Assembly: GCA_019894885.1 (NCBI GenBank)
Contig: JAGXNP010000009.1
Coordinates: 1-38,549 of the forward strand
DNA: 38,549 nucleotides
Direction: 5' to 3'
DNA from: Promethearchaeota archaeon
GTDB lineage: Archaea > Asgardarchaeota > Lokiarchaeia > Sigyniarchaeales > SOKP01
In this document: piece by piece, positions 2,784 to 22,350 of the stretch
How the letters are laid out: the number at the start of each line of letters is the position of its first letter
Position numbering within the stretch: position 1 is the first letter of the stretch
Program-made: the position numbers and the translations under genes
The notes under the pieces: model-generated
Told to the model about the DNA's origin: nothing
Database searches by the model: none
What the model saw: only the letters and a program-made list of their open reading frames with translations

Positions 2784-4072
2784 ACAATATCACATTTAAG
2801 TTCTTGATTATCACATAAAATGCTATAATCGTTATCAATCAACTTTATTGTTTCTCGAAACAAATTGCATGTGTCAAGTAAAATTTTTGGATCTACTTTC
2901 TCAGGAGTATCTTTTACTGTATGAGTATATAACGATGCTGCTCCAGTAGTAATATCAATTGCATCGTATTTCCTTATCCGAAAAGGAACTGTGTCTGAAT
3001 GTGCCCCAGTGCTTAAATGAAGCCCTTTCACTTCTAAATTTGCTCTTTTTGCTGCAAGCAAAATGTATCTACTTAGAAGTGGGGCAATCAATCTGTGTAT
3101 ACCTACTCCGTAAGATTTAAAGTATTCAATCCTATTATTTTTATGACATTCACAAGAAACCATATCAAAATTGATTTGAAATACTCTTCCTTTAACGAAC
3201 TGTTTTTCATATTCATTTACAAACACGCGTGAACCCATTGTTCCTAATTCTTCCGCTGAAAACTGGCAAAACCAAATGTTGAAATTATCTAAAGGATTTA
3301 TAATGAAGAAAGAACTTAATTCGAATACTATTGCCATTCCAGATGCGTTATCTAAAGCTCCAGGAGATTTATTATGTGTGTTAAGGAAAAGTAAGCAAAT
3401 ATTTGTAAATGAGATTAATATTATTGATATCCAAGCTCCATACATAGTAATATTAAAGGAAATATTCAAATTCCCAAAAAAAATGATTAAATAAAAAATA
3501 TAAACTCCTCCTAATATTATTACGCTATACAACCAAATTTTATACAAAACAACTCTCCAAAAAGTATTTATTGATTGAGATTTAGAATCGAGGTGCGCTG
3601 AAATTACTATATTTCCAGCATCCTTGTCGGGTATCTTTTTAGCAGGAATTTTAGTAAAAACATTAGTAGAAGAAATAGTTTCACCAAAATATTCACCCCA
3701 AAAACCGGGGATTTCCGGGTGCTTTAAACCTCTAATTATTAAATAAACAATTATAACCATAAAAATTATTAAAAGCATTGTTAACGAAACATGAATATAT
3801 GAGAATAATAACAGAATTAAATTAAATATCAAATTTAACATCATAAACAATTTCATTAAGCTTGTAGAATAAAAATCTGAAAAATCAAAAGTCTTTTTCT
3901 CTATTTGATCTTTTTTAAATCCTATCTCATTGAATGTGTCGTAGGCTAACTTAACCGCTTTTTTTTCACCATCAGTGCCTGCTAATCGTGGAAAACTAAA
4001 AGTGTTAACAAATTTTGACAGCCTATCCTGATTAAAATAAGTTTTATTTAATGTTTGGTTTCGAGATATTAT
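2780..4072 (-). CDS. M28-family zinc exopeptidase-like membrane protein, with an N-terminal extension and a proposed AUA start
   Basis: The listed ORF starts at 3856. The same frame stays open upstream and encodes SRNQTLNKTYFNQDRLSKFVNTFSFPRLAGTDGEKKAVKLAYDTFNEIGFKKDQIEKKTFDFSDFYSTSL before the listed Met; FPRLAGTDGEKKA is typical of M28/PA-type N-termini. Catalytic-type motifs: ISAHLDSKS, GALDNASGMA, SAEELGTMGSRVF. No ATG/GTG/TTG is present upstream in frame; AUA at 4072/4069 follows GAGGG. Confidence 0.8.
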   Translation of the reverse strand: MISRNQTLNKTYFNQDRLSKFVNTFSFPRLAGTDGEKKAVKLAYDTFNEIGFKKDQIEKKTFDFSDFYSTSLMKLFMMLNLIFNLILLLFSYIHVSLTMLLIIFMVIIVYLIIRGLKHPEIPGFWGEYFGETISSTNVFTKIPAKKIPDKDAGNIVISAHLDSKSQSINTFWRVVLYKIWLYSVIILGGVYIFYLIIFFGNLNISFNITMYGAWISIILISFTNICLLFLNTHNKSPGALDNASGMAIVFELSSFFIINPLDNFNIWFCQFSAEELGTMGSRVFVNEYEKQFVKGRVFQINFDMVSCECHKNNRIEYFKSYGVGIHRLIAPLLSRYILLAAKRANLEVKGLHLSTGAHSDTVPFRIRKYDAIDITTGAASLYTHTVKDTPEKVDPKILLDTCNLFRETIKLIDNDYSILCDNQELKCDIV

Positions 4073-4094
4073 ATTTTCCCTCGTTTTAAATGAA

Positions 4095-4724
4095 TTAATT
4101 TTTAGTTTGAATTCCTCTTTGATTTAATTTTTCTATAACAACTTCTTGGATCTTTGCTTGAACTAATTCGATTATATCATCTGTATTAATTACAAAATAT
4201 CCCTCATTTTTAGCACGATTTAGATACACTTTTCTTACCTTTTCTAACAATGAAGTGTCTTCGAATTTGTCCAAAGCCTTTTGATGTTTCCTGGCTAATG
4301 AAAATTTAGGATCGATATCTAGAATTATTGTTAGATCGGGTTTACCTGCAAATTTATTTATGTTTTTCACCCATTCTATACTTATATTTTCAGATTGACT
4401 TGATTGGTAAGCAATCGAGGACTCTATATACCTATCCGATATTACTATATAACCATCTTCTAATTTTTTTTTAATTTCGTTTTTATAATGAAGAACTCTA
4501 TCAGCAGCAAATAGTAAAGCATCAGTAGAAGCAGGAATTCTTTCATTTTTTAAATAAGTTCTTAATAACTTCCCAATTTCGCTACTTGAGGGTTCTTGGG
4601 TTAAAAAAGTTTTTAAACCTTTTAAGGATAAAAATCCCGCTAGTAAATTGCTATGTGTTGATGTACCTGAGCCATCTATTCCGTCGAGAACAATAAATAA
4701 TGATTGGTGCATAGTTTTTATCAT
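4095..4724 (-). CDS. tmk: Thymidylate kinase
   Basis: FIVLDGIDGSGTSTHSNLLAGFL P-loop and the DRYIESSIAYQ motif. Confidence 0.92.
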   Translation of the reverse strand: MIKTMHQSLFIVLDGIDGSGTSTHSNLLAGFLSLKGLKTFLTQEPSSSEIGKLLRTYLKNERIPASTDALLFAADRVLHYKNEIKKKLEDGYIVISDRYIESSIAYQSSQSENISIEWVKNINKFAGKPDLTIILDIDPKFSLARKHQKALDKFEDTSLLEKVRKVYLNRAKNEGYFVINTDDIIELVQAKIQEVVIEKLNQRGIQTKN

Positions 4725-4978
4725 GTATTTCTATTATTTGAATCTATAAAAATTAATTGTAATTATTGGTCTATTTTATATTATATAACACGAAGCCTAA
4801 CAATTCTAAGTTTTAGGTTATTAAGAAGTTTTATCAAATTATTTTGCTTAAATTTTACTATTTAACAATTTTTTGGAATTTAAAGATATCAACGGTAAAA
4901 ATTTTAAAGTGGATATTTTTTACATTATCTTAATATATCTTTAAAAATTAGATGCTTAAGAACTATTTAAGATAAATT

Positions 4979-5365
4979 ATGTCAACAAGAAATCGTGTAG
5001 GATATTGCCCTTTTTGCAAACAAAACGTGTTGTTAGTAAGAGAGGCGTTAAATTGGCCACTTATAATAATTTTATTGATTTTTACCGCTGGAATTGGTTT
5101 AATTATTTATTTAATTATATATTATAATAAACCTGAGAGTCATTGTATTCACTGTCACACGCAAATATCCTTGAAATCAAACCAGAGTATTCAATCTTCA
5201 ACCTATTTTCAAGCTGAAAATCAAATAACACCGCATAGCGATATTCACGCTGATATAAAGGTTAAAGACGACGAAACTTCAACACATAAGCACTGTCCAT
5301 TTTGTGGGGAGCTAATACTAAATGAACGCGCAAAGTTTTGTCCTCATTGCGGATCAAAAGTTTAA
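4979..5365 (+). CDS. Zinc-ribbon / short membrane segment / zinc-ribbon protein (LITAF-like arrangement)
   Basis: YCPFC - hydrophobic stretch (WPLIIILLIFTAGIGLIIYLIIYY) - CIHC, then a second zinc ribbon HCPFCGE...FCPHCGSKV. Paralogous to 5778..6173. Confidence 0.8.
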   Translation: MSTRNRVGYCPFCKQNVLLVREALNWPLIIILLIFTAGIGLIIYLIIYYNKPESHCIHCHTQISLKSNQSIQSSTYFQAENQITPHSDIHADIKVKDDETSTHKHCPFCGELILNERAKFCPHCGSKV

Positions 5366-5777
5366 TCAATAGATTTTTAGAGGTACAATCTGCATCTTAT
5401 GCTAAATACATCCTTTTGATGAATAGAATAAATATTGGGATGTTTTTCCTTTTTCAAGTAATTTTCTTTGCTTGTTATTATTTCTCTTACCCTAAAATAA
5501 ATTCTATTGTTGTTTACCCATATCTTATCAACCAAGATATTAAGTACACCAAAATTTCCTGTGGTATAAACTTGAAAGGATGTTAAATTTTCCGTTGTTG
5601 AACCCTCAATACAAGATTCATATAATTACTTTTCAACTATGTTATTTTTAACTCCACGAATTTTATTTTCGAAATATTTTTGTCCCAAAACTGCTGTCTA
5701 AAAACTGGACTCCAGATTTTTTATAATTAATCAAATTTATGTTTTAATTAAGTAATCATATTTTTATACAATAATAA

Positions 5778-6173
5778 TTGAAAGAGGTAAAGTATATGGC
5801 ATTTAAATATTGTCCGAATTGTAAAATGAATGTTCTCACAGTAAGAGAGGATATAGATATTTGTTTAATCATTATATTAGGTATTTTTACTGCCGGTATT
5901 GGGGTCCTTATATATCTCGCAATCTACTACGAAAAAGAACCAAATCGTTGTGTTCACTGCAAATCGATTTGCCAACCTATCTCTAATATACAAAATGATA
6001 GCGTTCTTAATTCAAAACCATCGCAGATTAATAAATACCAAGAAGCAGAAAACTACGTAGAAAAAAATGCTCAAATTGCTGTTGAGTCGAAATTCTGCTC
6101 TAATTGTGGAGTGAAAATCGGCGAAAGAGAAGGATTGAAATTTTGCGCGTTCTGTGGAACTAAAATTAACTAA
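5778..6173 (+). CDS. Zinc-ribbon / short membrane segment / zinc-ribbon protein (LITAF-like arrangement), paralogue
   Basis: YCPNCKMNVLTVRE...IIILGIFTAGIGVLIYLAIYYEKEPNRCVHC, then FCSNCG...FCAFCGTKI. Actual start may be the ATG at 5796 (MAFKYCPNC). Confidence 0.8.
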   Translation: MKEVKYMAFKYCPNCKMNVLTVREDIDICLIIILGIFTAGIGVLIYLAIYYEKEPNRCVHCKSICQPISNIQNDSVLNSKPSQINKYQEAENYVEKNAQIAVESKFCSNCGVKIGEREGLKFCAFCGTKIN

Positions 6174-14309: not shown

Positions 14310-14440
14310 AAAGAGGTGAACTAAAAACTTCCTTTTATTCTATAAATTTTTGTTATTAATTACAAAATAAAAATAAATAAATGAAATTATTGCGTAAGGT
14401 GTACAGTAATTACACATTCAAGATGTAAGGTGATAAAAAC

Positions 14441-15064
14441 ATTAATCAAGAAATTGGGCTTGATGAACTAGAGAAGAAAGCGTGGAGGACTACTTTTGAT
14501 GATGGAATCATGGATATATACTTTGGAATTTTAATCGCAAGTTTTGCTCCTAGTCTTTCCCTTACTGAAATTTTACCCTTTCCTTTAAATGTCTTGTTGG
14601 GGCCAATAATGATTGGATTTGGTCTCGCTTTTTTTATTCTTAGCAAGAAGTTTCTTATTAAACCGCGCATAGGAGTTGTAAAATTTGGTCGTAAACGAAA
14701 AGTCAGAAAAAGGAGAACAATGGTAGTTTTATCAATTAATATAGTGATTCTACTAATCCTATTTCTTCTCAGAGTATCTGACATCGGAGGAAGTTTTAGT
14801 CTCCCCTTCCTCATAGAAGGCTATTTGTTTTTAACTGTTCCACTATGCATCGTGGCTTATTTTCTGCAATTTACTCGGTTATATATTTATGGTTTTCTAT
14901 TGGGATCTGGATTTTTTTTAGCAGATATTTCTTCAATTATCGTACCAATCCCTTATAACTTTTTATTCACATATCTTCTACTAGGAGGTATTATTGTCAT
15001 AATAGGTGTTACATATCTGATTCGATTTCTAAGAAAGTATCCATTACCAAGAGAGGAGACATAA
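14441..15064 (+). CDS. Membrane protein, tandem paralogue 1 (proposed AUU start)
   Basis: The listed ORF starts at ATG 14510, but the conserved N-terminus [M]NQEIGLDELEKKAWRTTFDDGIMDIYFG is encoded in frame from ATT 14441, 6 nt after AGGTGA. It aligns with MNEYIDVKEMEKKAWKSTFQDGLWDIYFG and MNEHIDLKGLEKKAWRSAFQDGIWDIYFG. Confidence 0.85.
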   Translation: MNQEIGLDELEKKAWRTTFDDGIMDIYFGILIASFAPSLSLTEILPFPLNVLLGPIMIGFGLAFFILSKKFLIKPRIGVVKFGRKRKVRKRRTMVVLSINIVILLILFLLRVSDIGGSFSLPFLIEGYLFLTVPLCIVAYFLQFTRLYIYGFLLGSGFFLADISSIIVPIPYNFLFTYLLLGGIIVIIGVTYLIRFLRKYPLPREET

Positions 15065-15069
15065 CAGAA

Positions 15070-15714
15070 GTGAACGAATATATTGATGTAAAAGAAATGG
15101 AAAAAAAAGCGTGGAAATCTACTTTTCAAGATGGTTTATGGGACATATATTTTGGTTTGATAATCGCAGGGATAGGTTTTTCTTGGTTGGGGGGATTTTT
15201 TGGACTACCAGAGACTGTGAATGTTTTAGTCACTGTTTTCAGTTGGGATATTGGAGCGATGCTCATTTTTTTTCTTGGTAAGAAATACATTACTCGGCCT
15301 AGGATGGGTTTTGTTAAATTTGGGCAAATACGAAAAAAGCGAAATAAATTTTTAGCACTATTTATGGGTTTGATGGTTGCTCTTACTTTCATAACATTTA
15401 TATTTACATTATTAGGTATGTTTCAATTGCAGTTACCAGAATTCTTGGTTATGTTATTAATAGGACTACTATTTATTACAGTGCCTTTTAGCGTATTAGC
15501 ATATTTCCTACAATTAAAGCGTTTGTGTTTATACGCTTTATTAGGAGGTTTAGGTTTATTTATTAGTGAACTATTACTGCCAATTTTTGGGGCACCATAT
15601 CATGAAATTATACCGTTTGGAGGGATAGGATTAGTTATTACAATCACAGGACTAATCATTTTTATTAAGTTTCTTAAAAGATATTCACTAAAGGAAGACG
15701 AGGGATTAAATTAG
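15070..15714 (+). CDS. Membrane protein, tandem paralogue 2
   Basis: Shares EKKAWKSTFQDGLWDIYFG and GKKYITRPRMGFVKFG with its neighbours. Confidence 0.85.
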   Translation: MNEYIDVKEMEKKAWKSTFQDGLWDIYFGLIIAGIGFSWLGGFFGLPETVNVLVTVFSWDIGAMLIFFLGKKYITRPRMGFVKFGQIRKKRNKFLALFMGLMVALTFITFIFTLLGMFQLQLPEFLVMLLIGLLFITVPFSVLAYFLQLKRLCLYALLGGLGLFISELLLPIFGAPYHEIIPFGGIGLVITITGLIIFIKFLKRYSLKEDEGLN

Positions 15715-16350
15715 GTGAATGAGCATATTGATCTAAAGGGATTGGAAAAGAAAGCCTGGAGATCAGCTTTTCAAGATGGTATTTGGGACATATATTTTGG
15801 TTGGTTATTTTTAGGATTGGCGATTGCTCCTTTTGGAGATACTTTTGGTTTGCCTGCAGAATTAGGTAGTATGATAATCGTACTTTGCTGGAATTCAATG
15901 GCAGTACTATTCTTAATTTTAGGCAAGAAATTTATTACGATACCTCGTATGGGTTTTGTTAAATTTGGTGCCAAAAGAAAAAAAATGAAGAAAAGACTCT
16001 TAGCATTTTTAATTTTTAACGTAATCTTAGCTTTTTTGCTACTATTTATAAACATAAGTGGATTTTTCAAAGCGTTAAATATAGGAGGTTTAACCGAACC
16101 ACTAGTTATTGGATTAATATTAATAACAGTTCCTCTAAGTATCTTAGCTTATTTTTTAGAATTTCATAGATTATATGTATATGCTATTTTCTTCGGATTA
16201 GGTTTTTTCAACTCAGAACTATTATATCCTTTGGTAGGTTCTCCTTTAGACTTGTTTTTGAGTCAAGGTTCGGTAGGGATTGCTATCATTTCTATTGGTT
16301 TAGTTTATTTCGTTCAGTTCCTCCGTAAATACTCATCATCGCAAAAGTAG
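15715..16350 (+). CDS. Membrane protein, tandem paralogue 3
   Basis: Shares EKKAWRSAFQDGIWDIYFG and GKKFITIPRMGFVKFG. GTG 15715 lies inside AGGTGA; ATT 15727 (ATT GAT CTA) is 6 nt after it. Confidence 0.85.
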   Translation: MNEHIDLKGLEKKAWRSAFQDGIWDIYFGWLFLGLAIAPFGDTFGLPAELGSMIIVLCWNSMAVLFLILGKKFITIPRMGFVKFGAKRKKMKKRLLAFLIFNVILAFLLLFINISGFFKALNIGGLTEPLVIGLILITVPLSILAYFLEFHRLYVYAIFFGLGFFNSELLYPLVGSPLDLFLSQGSVGIAIISIGLVYFVQFLRKYSSSQK

Positions 16351-16360
16351 GTGATATCCA

Positions 16361-16702
16361 ATCGCTAAAAAGAAAATGAAATCAGACGAATCTGAAGGAA
16401 AGATACAAATCCTTACAGAGATTAACAAACTTATTCACGAACCAGCTCGTTTGATGATCATTTCTCTTTTATATGTTATTGAGAACGCTGATTTCGTTTG
16501 GATTAAAGGACAGACTGGATTAACTGATGGAAATTTATCATCTCATCTTAGCAAACTTGAAAGTGCTGGTTACGTCACTGTTGAAAAGAGTATTAAAAAT
16601 AAGAAGACTAACACCTTACTTAAGCTTAGTGAGGGGGGTAGGAAAGCTTTTGAAGAGTATCGGAAAAAATTAACGCAAATTCTGGGAAGTACCGATAATT
16701 AA
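16361..16702 (+). CDS. Winged-helix DNA-binding transcriptional regulator (proposed AUC start)
   Basis: ILTEINKLIHEPARLMIISLLY...TGLTDGNLSSHLSKLESAGYVTVEKSIKNKKTNTLLKLSEGGRKAFEEY. The only ATG (16376) has no SD; ATC 16361 is 6 nt after AGGTGA and gives [M]AKKKMKSDESEG. Confidence 0.85.
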   Translation: MAKKKMKSDESEGKIQILTEINKLIHEPARLMIISLLYVIENADFVWIKGQTGLTDGNLSSHLSKLESAGYVTVEKSIKNKKTNTLLKLSEGGRKAFEEYRKKLTQILGSTDN

Positions 16703-20812: not shown

Positions 20813-20988
20813 CAAACTTTGATAGACATATCCTTTTTTTTTAACTAGAAGCAATTGTTACTATCTGAAAATTAATTATCTTTAAAATTTAAACCTTATT
20901 TAATTATATAATTATCTCATTCTAAATAACTATGGATTAAACTCTCGTTCAGTAGAATTATCGAAAAAACTTTAAGGTGTAAAATAGT

Positions 20989-21672
20989 ATTATTGAGATT
21001 GGAAAAGAAACAATTAACCCAACAAAAATAATATGCATTGGTACGAACTATATGGATCACATAGAAGAAACTAAGTTAGAAGTGCCAAAAGAACCAGTTC
21101 TTTTTCCAAAGACTATAAACTGCCTTATCCCACACGGTGCACCGATTATTTATCCTAGATGGATTCACGACAATCGTAAATTCAACAGGATTGATTACGA
21201 AGTAGAACTAGCTTTTATTATAAAAGATAAATGTAAGTATGTAAAAGCTAACAAAGCGTACGATCATATTTTAGGGTATACGATATTTAACGATATTACC
21301 GCTAGAAAGATACAGGTTAAAGATATAGCTTCAAGATTACCTTGGTTTCGCTCTAAAGCTTTAGATACCTTTGGTCCAATAGGTCCCAGAATTGTAAGCC
21401 ATCCGGAAATCGAAAATCCCCACAATCTTAAAATCGAACTAAAATTAAATGGAGAAATTAAGCAATCGTCAAATACAAAACATTTATTATTCAAAATCCC
21501 TGAACTTTTAGAAAATATTTCACAATTTTTTACTATGGAACCGGGCGATATTGTAGCTACAGGTACCCCGTCAGGTATAGGTCCAATCAAACCCGGAGAT
21601 CGTATAGAAGCTTCGATCGAAAAAATTGGAACCTTATCAAATAGGGTTATTCTAGAGGAGGAGTTGAGTTAA
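20989..21672 (+). CDS. Fumarylacetoacetate hydrolase-family protein, copy 1 (proposed AUU start)
   Basis: The listed ORF starts at ATG 21052. Upstream in frame [M]IEIGKETINPTKIICIGTNYMDH aligns with copy 2 MIKIGKTTINPTKILCLGRNYLDH. Stop at 20980 and no ATG/GTG/TTG between; ATT 20989 aligns with the TTG start of copy 2. Confidence 0.9.
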   Translation: MIEIGKETINPTKIICIGTNYMDHIEETKLEVPKEPVLFPKTINCLIPHGAPIIYPRWIHDNRKFNRIDYEVELAFIIKDKCKYVKANKAYDHILGYTIFNDITARKIQVKDIASRLPWFRSKALDTFGPIGPRIVSHPEIENPHNLKIELKLNGEIKQSSNTKHLLFKIPELLENISQFFTMEPGDIVATGTPSGIGPIKPGDRIEASIEKIGTLSNRVILEEELS

Positions 21673-22350
21673 TTGATTAAAATTGGAAAAACTACGATAA
21701 ATCCAACAAAAATTTTGTGTTTAGGGCGCAATTACTTAGATCACATTAAAGAAACAAACGCACCTGTTCCTACGGAACCTGTTTTTTTTGTTAAGACTTT
21801 AAATACGCTTATAACTGACAACGAACCAATAATTTACCCGAAAATTCTATATGAAAGTGAGAAGTATAATAGAGTCGATCACGAAGTAGAACTCGCTTTT
21901 ATTATTTTTCAAACATGTAAAAAAGTTTCAGCGGATGTTGCATTCGATTATATCCAAGGTTACACGATTTTTCTTGATTTAACTGCGAGAACTATGCAAA
22001 AAAGCGATAGAAATATAAATTTACCATGGTATAGAAGCAAAAACTTCGATTCATTTGGGCCTATAGGACCAAGAATAGTTCCATGTAGTGAAATTTCCGA
22101 CCCTCATAACTTATCAATTCAATTAAAAGTTAATGGACAGACAAGACAATTTTCGAATACCAAACATATGTTGTTTAGAATCCCTCAAATACTAGAATAT
22201 TTATCTAAATTTGTAACATTGAAAAGAGGAGATATAATCGCTACAGGTACTCCAAGTGGAATAAGTCCGATACAACCAGGAGATATAATAGAAGCATCTA
22301 TTGAAAAAATAGGTACGATTACGCACGAAGTTATTTTAGAACTGGATTAA
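21673..22350 (+). CDS. Fumarylacetoacetate hydrolase-family protein, copy 2
   Basis: GRNYLDHIKE, VDHEVELAFII, GYTIFLDLTAR, SFGPIGPRIV, ATGTPSGISPIQPGD motifs. Confidence 0.92.
   Translation: MIKIGKTTINPTKILCLGRNYLDHIKETNAPVPTEPVFFVKTLNTLITDNEPIIYPKILYESEKYNRVDHEVELAFIIFQTCKKVSADVAFDYIQGYTIFLDLTARTMQKSDRNINLPWYRSKNFDSFGPIGPRIVPCSEISDPHNLSIQLKVNGQTRQFSNTKHMLFRIPQILEYLSKFVTLKRGDIIATGTPSGISPIQPGDIIEASIEKIGTITHEVILELD

Follow-up and report, generated by a model that had tools for sequence, protein, structure and literature searches.

Apparent AUU and AUA start codons in a genus of Asgard archaea: a membrane-protein gene of Sigyniarchaeales and its genomic context

A tandem trio of membrane-protein genes and its first start codon

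The window (the whole stretch of 38,549 nucleotides that was analysed) belongs to a contig of a 3.2-Mb draft genome, with 32% G+C, of a Promethearchaeota archaeon of the order Sigyniarchaeales in the class Lokiarchaeia. Three tandem genes for paralogous membrane proteins lie on its forward strand. Paralogue 1 (14441..15064) encodes 207 amino acids counted from an AUU codon and has no match in Pfam or NCBIfam, and paralogues 2 (15070..15714) and 3 (15715..16350) both begin with GTG. Directly 3′ of the three, on the same strand, is the gene for a winged-helix regulator (HTH_34, E=2.9e-25; 16376..16702).

An in-frame TAA (14426..14428) closes the frame upstream of paralogue 1. The sequence then reads AGGTGAT (14428..14434), the six nucleotides AAAAAC, and ATT (14441..14443). 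None of the in-frame codons from GGT at 14429 to ATC at 14507 is ATG, GTG or TTG, the first canonical codon being the ATG at 14510, and the ORF terminates at the TAA of 15062..15064. An earlier, sequence-only reading of this DNA had described the same upstream stop, the lack of a canonical codon before 14510, and an ATT exactly 6 nt past a Shine-Dalgarno (SD) motif, and the window sequence bears it out on each point. The anti-SD that it invoked is real as well. The assembly itself holds no 16S rRNA gene; the 3′ end of 16S rRNA in congeners is GGATCACCTCCT, with the anti-SD intact. The SD of paralogue 1 (14428..14434) pairs with the congener 16S 3′ end, AUCACCUCCU, in a duplex of -9.5 kcal/mol, and its spacing from the ATT is normal.

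From their start codons on, the three paralogues align residue by residue, with N2, I5 and E11-W15 invariant; the first begins at the ATT and the others at GTG codons at 15070 and 15715. The sequence-only reading had also described a residue-by-residue alignment. That this alignment proves the AUU start is too strong a claim. It lends the start support, and much stronger support comes from orthologues, a comparison that the sequence-only reading had proposed. Relatives of paralogue 1 were found in 12 of the 39 genomes searched. Three congeners whose proteins are 74–79% identical and whose leaders are near-identical (G008, G009, G021) have ATG where this genome has the ATT of 14441, one carries TTG (G019) and one ATA (G020). 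The presence of ATG, TTG or ATA at this codon in relatives settles by comparison that the start lies at 14441, with AUU in the place of AUG.

Translation from the ATG at 14510, with the conserved stretch upstream either untranslated or a decayed N-terminus, would make use of the first canonical codon of the ORF. It is nonetheless extremely improbable, since the 23 residues it would leave out are conserved with paralogues and orthologues alike, up to the exact codon that is ATG or TTG in relatives, and since the placement of the SD suits 14441. AUU initiation at 14441 is thus the best reading of the start of paralogue 1, and one that comparative sequence evidence supports.

The strength of the SD duplex also differs among these orthologues, at -9.5 kcal/mol for the gene with ATT, -8.3 for that with ATA, and -4.0 for those bearing ATG. 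A stronger SD in company with a weaker start codon fits compensation, as judged from a handful of cases in which the association is confounded with phylogeny.

Near-cognate starts elsewhere in the window and the genome

The sequence-only reading counted five such loci in 38 kb. A partial check confirmed one other, a gene of the FAH-domain family (FAA_hydrolase; 20989..21672, forward strand), which has an SD of AGGTG at 20975..20979 and an ATT start at 20989 or 20992. Its first canonical codon, at 21052, would drop the first 21 residues, including the conserved TINPTKIICIG. The second of the two candidate codons is ATG in eight congeners and ATA in three, and the orthologue in genome G002 has ATT at the first. 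The gene is followed on the same strand by a paralogue with a TTG start (21673..22350), for which most congeners have ATG. In genome G019, the FAH paralogue (L233; G019:C106:13815-14486) has an in-frame TAA inside the matched stretch. Elsewhere in the window, about 89 coding-like codons (3857-4123, reverse strand) precede the first canonical start, ATG 3856, of an M28 peptidase gene, whose true start may be another near-cognate codon.

A well-defined case is pheT, which encodes the beta subunit of phenylalanyl-tRNA synthetase and opens with ATA-CCA-ACC behind GAGGTGA. Within the genus its start codon is ATA in 13 genomes, the present one included, and ATT in one; five other genomes of family f1 and nearly all outgroups have ATG, and proline always comes next. 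In a genome of another family (G035), pheT has ATT. The first position of the NCBIfam profile TIGR00471 aligns to the near-cognate codon. The association between SD and start codon in pheT tracks phylogeny and is not independent evidence. Orthologues with a canonical start at the homologous codon were therefore found for pheT, as for paralogue 1 and the FAH-domain gene.

The genes for TatD, GcvT, a GFO/MocA oxidoreductase and a Ras-type GTPase also begin at ATT or ATA, and in each the first canonical codon after that, which comes 34, 19, 52 and 77 codons later, respectively, falls within the conserved domain. Three coiled-coil paralogues that share GRFLLDLRAK (L094:17853, L094:18682 and L039:7972) all appear to start at ATT. 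Apparent CTG starts behind a good SD are seen in gatB (L094:3184) and in a ThiI-like PP-loop gene (L067:7944).

The use of ATT and ATA was examined across 1.64 Mb of the genome, window included (51% of the total), in which 1086 genes were called with a coding model. ARAGORN reported four tRNAs only in these 1.64 Mb (L003-L101), for which introns in most tRNA genes are one possible explanation. A first SD-anchored codon census was underpowered. The frame-controlled test that carries the genome-wide claim took SD motifs near gene starts from which no canonical in-frame start was reachable, and scored the codons at normal spacing from them. ATT or ATA accounted for 24 of the 82 in-frame codons, as against 10 of 193 for the other two frames (p=1.5e-7). 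The same test showed no in-frame enrichment of ATC, AAA, AAT/TTT or GAA. The ORF at 14441 was outside the tested gene set, so it contributed nothing to this result. Set against the 184 SD sites with a reachable canonical start in the same scan, the 24 in-frame codons suggest that roughly one in ten SD-led genes uses ATT or ATA.

A model of start-codon use in which all 61 sense codons were free and SD energy was a term gave ATG.68, TTG.12, ATT.043, ATA.038 and GTG.037, with ATC at about 0 and an AAA component also present. When the SD term was removed, ATT and ATA were not recovered and AAA was favoured. The estimated rate across the genome is accordingly based on SD-led genes, and the genome-wide claim on the frame-controlled test. 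The AAA component is treated as a boundary artefact: it grows without the SD term, and its SD energy is no different from that of the control. Best-guess starts among the 1086 calls include 28 ATT and 26 ATA, some of which are wrong (at L064 15284, for instance, an ATG four codons on is the likely start), and a fair range for the share of genes with ATT or ATA is 3 to 8%. Such starts appear to stand mostly behind a good SD. The opinion that AUU initiation is very rare does not hold for this lineage, where AUU and AUA recur as starts.

In a more distant relative, G030, the frame test tends in that direction too (p=0.06 and 0.04). The expectation-maximization (EM) start model was too noisy at the 400-kb scale, both for a relative and for matched 400-kb subsamples, and a whole-genome comparison of orthologues with G030 left 10 usable genes only, among which the clear ATA case is pheT. 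An SD-led ATA start is also seen in G030 in the gene of a HAD-type protein (L211, reverse strand, 2784-5976).

These observations bear on the simplest objection to the ATT at 14441, namely that the gene is an ordinary one whose ATG was misread in sequencing or assembly. A single base separates the two codons, and three close relatives do have ATG there. Even so, an error is very improbable. Changes at the third base recur at homologous starts in independent genomes (ATA in pheT of 13, AUU in aIF1 of 21), ATT and ATA linked to an SD are enriched genome-wide, and it is implausible that errors would cluster on start codons. The SD of paralogue 1 differs too, being GGTGAT as compared with GGTAATT in the ATG-bearing relatives. 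The ATT at 14441 is very probably the start of paralogue 1 and one case of a genus-wide use of AUU and AUA beside AUG, UUG and GUG. Sequence comparison establishes where the starts lie and that ATG, ATA, ATT and TTG replace one another at homologous sites.

The gene for initiation factor aIF1

The present genome encodes aIF1 at L188:104-442 (G000:C118), with AUU as the apparent start codon. The product belongs to the SUI1 family (PF01253, E=1.3e-14) and matches aIF1 of M. jannaschii (4mo0, E=9e-22); its predicted N-terminus extends two residues beyond that of the solved protein. Canonical in-frame codons occur only at numbers 72 and 107 of 113. The leader AAAGGTTGTGA-N9-ATT-AAR-GAN-GAN-GAN is exact in 21 of the 24 genomes of the genus, the other three being incomplete drafts. 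All 21 genomes with an intact leader have AUU as the predicted start codon, and NTG is found at this position in none of the 24. Hence, aIF1 appears to be without a usable canonical start throughout the genus.

The codons preceding the ATT vary freely, and the ATT is fixed. This pattern is relevant to another possible route of initiation, by way of a short upstream GTG frame, by frameshifting, or at AAA, AAG or AGT codons before the ATT of aIF1. The gene does have an out-of-frame GTG, whose short frame is closed by a TAA that overlaps the AUU, an arrangement that might couple the two. Such a route is very improbable, however: the three codons ahead of the ATT show non-synonymous differences between genomes (AAA/AGA/AAT/AAC/ATA, AAG/AGG, AGT/AAC), the short GTG frame is only two codons long in G019, and aIF1 of family f2 has ATA or TTG at the aligned codon. 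AUU as the initiation codon of aIF1 is thus the preferred reading. A second, divergent aIF1 is present in G004, G013 and G018 (L163, L165, L166); its SD contains an in-frame GTG, and ATT stands at the aligned start.

In other Asgard lineages, the aIF1 gene starts at ATA (G044; G053, G061, G068), CTG (G048), GTG (f21, G045) or, in several, ATG. Near-cognate starts (ATA, ATT or CTG) are found in 5 of the 18 Asgard lineages sampled, which exceeds the background of 3 to 8% at p of about 0.0002 to 0.01 in a rough test with assumed backgrounds and partly dependent lineages. Loss of aIF1 was entertained as a cause of relaxed start choice and rejected, since 34 of the 39 relatives, with the present genome among them, have a SUI1 gene.

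Whether the start of aIF1 has been kept weak for a reason is a separate question. Near-cognate starts, that of aIF1 among them, could be the product of neutral drift in an AT-rich genome, a view that rivals only the regulatory part of the interpretation and for which the chances are a little short of even. It accords with the low G+C content, with the free variation of the homologous codon between species (ATG, ATA, ATT, TTG) and with the absence of ATC, which AT-biased mutation would seldom yield. The invariance of AUU in aIF1 of 21 genomes of the genus speaks against it, as does the excess of near-cognate aIF1 starts among the 18 lineages. The regulatory proposal is that Asgard aIF1 holds down its own production by means of a start that is weak on purpose (AUU in the genus; AUA, CUG or UUG elsewhere) and that the level of aIF1 tunes a regulon of AUU- and AUA-started genes, so that IF3, eIF1 and aIF1 would form a three-lineage pattern. 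It is put forward tentatively, as something that could well be so but on balance falls slightly below the halfway mark.

Probable mechanism and known systems

Initiation at these codons probably begins with the SD/anti-SD duplex, which would hold AUU or AUA at the P site. There the initiator tRNA (CAU) would pair with A1 and U2, presumably bringing in methionine, and the mismatch at the third position would be tolerated through compensation by the SD duplex. In this genus aIF1, which normally rejects non-AUG codons, itself lies behind an AUU and could thereby restrain its own production in the manner of bacterial IF3; the arrangement predicts a feedback comparable to those exerted by IF3 on infC and by eIF1 on its own mRNA.

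Archaeal start codons named in a review are AUG, GUG and UUG, with no mention of either AUU or AUA; the review also states that in one annotated Lokiarchaeal genome SD motifs are not prevalent (PMC7531240). The present genus resembles known SD-led initiation in archaea in its intact anti-SD and usual SD spacing, but differs in that it also uses AUU and AUA. Searches of openly available journal literature, which carry little weight as proof of absence, returned no report that Asgard archaea start genes at AUU or AUA, and none on the start codon of aIF1. In practical terms, the assumption of AUG, GUG and UUG by gene finders and archaeal reviews alike truncates or loses genes here, including those for aIF1 and the essential pheT product, and hides N-terminal motifs. 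Asgard initiation, the system nearest to the ancestor from which eukaryotic scanning arose, also becomes a testable case of relaxed start choice.

Two bacterial systems invite comparison. The E. coli infC gene, for IF3, has an AUU start and is autoregulated, and ATC has also been noted in Streptomyces (PMC5472188). The analogy to infC drawn in the sequence-only reading proved apt: as with infC, a start-codon fidelity factor, and one that is the functional counterpart of IF3, has a gene that begins at AUU in this genus. The factor here is instead archaeal aIF1 of the SUI1 family, AUU and AUA are spread over many other genes, and autoregulation is hypothetical. The sigR gene of Streptomyces starts at GTC, is repressed by IF3 and has been mis-annotated by gene finders (PMC5472188). 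Near-cognate starts in the genus similarly occur in ordinary genes and are mis-called by gene finders. In contrast to sigR, a single gene with a demonstrated regulatory role, they form a recurrent feature of the genome and are not known to have a role.

The eukaryotic homologue of aIF1 is eIF1, whose own start site is suboptimal, with the result that its synthesis is self-limited. PMC6237735 cites Ivanov et al. 2010 for the autoregulation of eukaryotic eIF1 by way of its initiation context, and it also cites work reporting that aIF1 disfavours non-canonical start codons. The two systems differ in that the eukaryotic gene uses an AUG in poor context, whereas the codon of aIF1 is itself near-cognate. 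With infC and eIF1 as precedents, aIF1 suggests a third case in which a fidelity factor is encoded behind a weak start and, if the proposal is true, such factors in each of the three lineages would owe their autoregulation to the very error they prevent.
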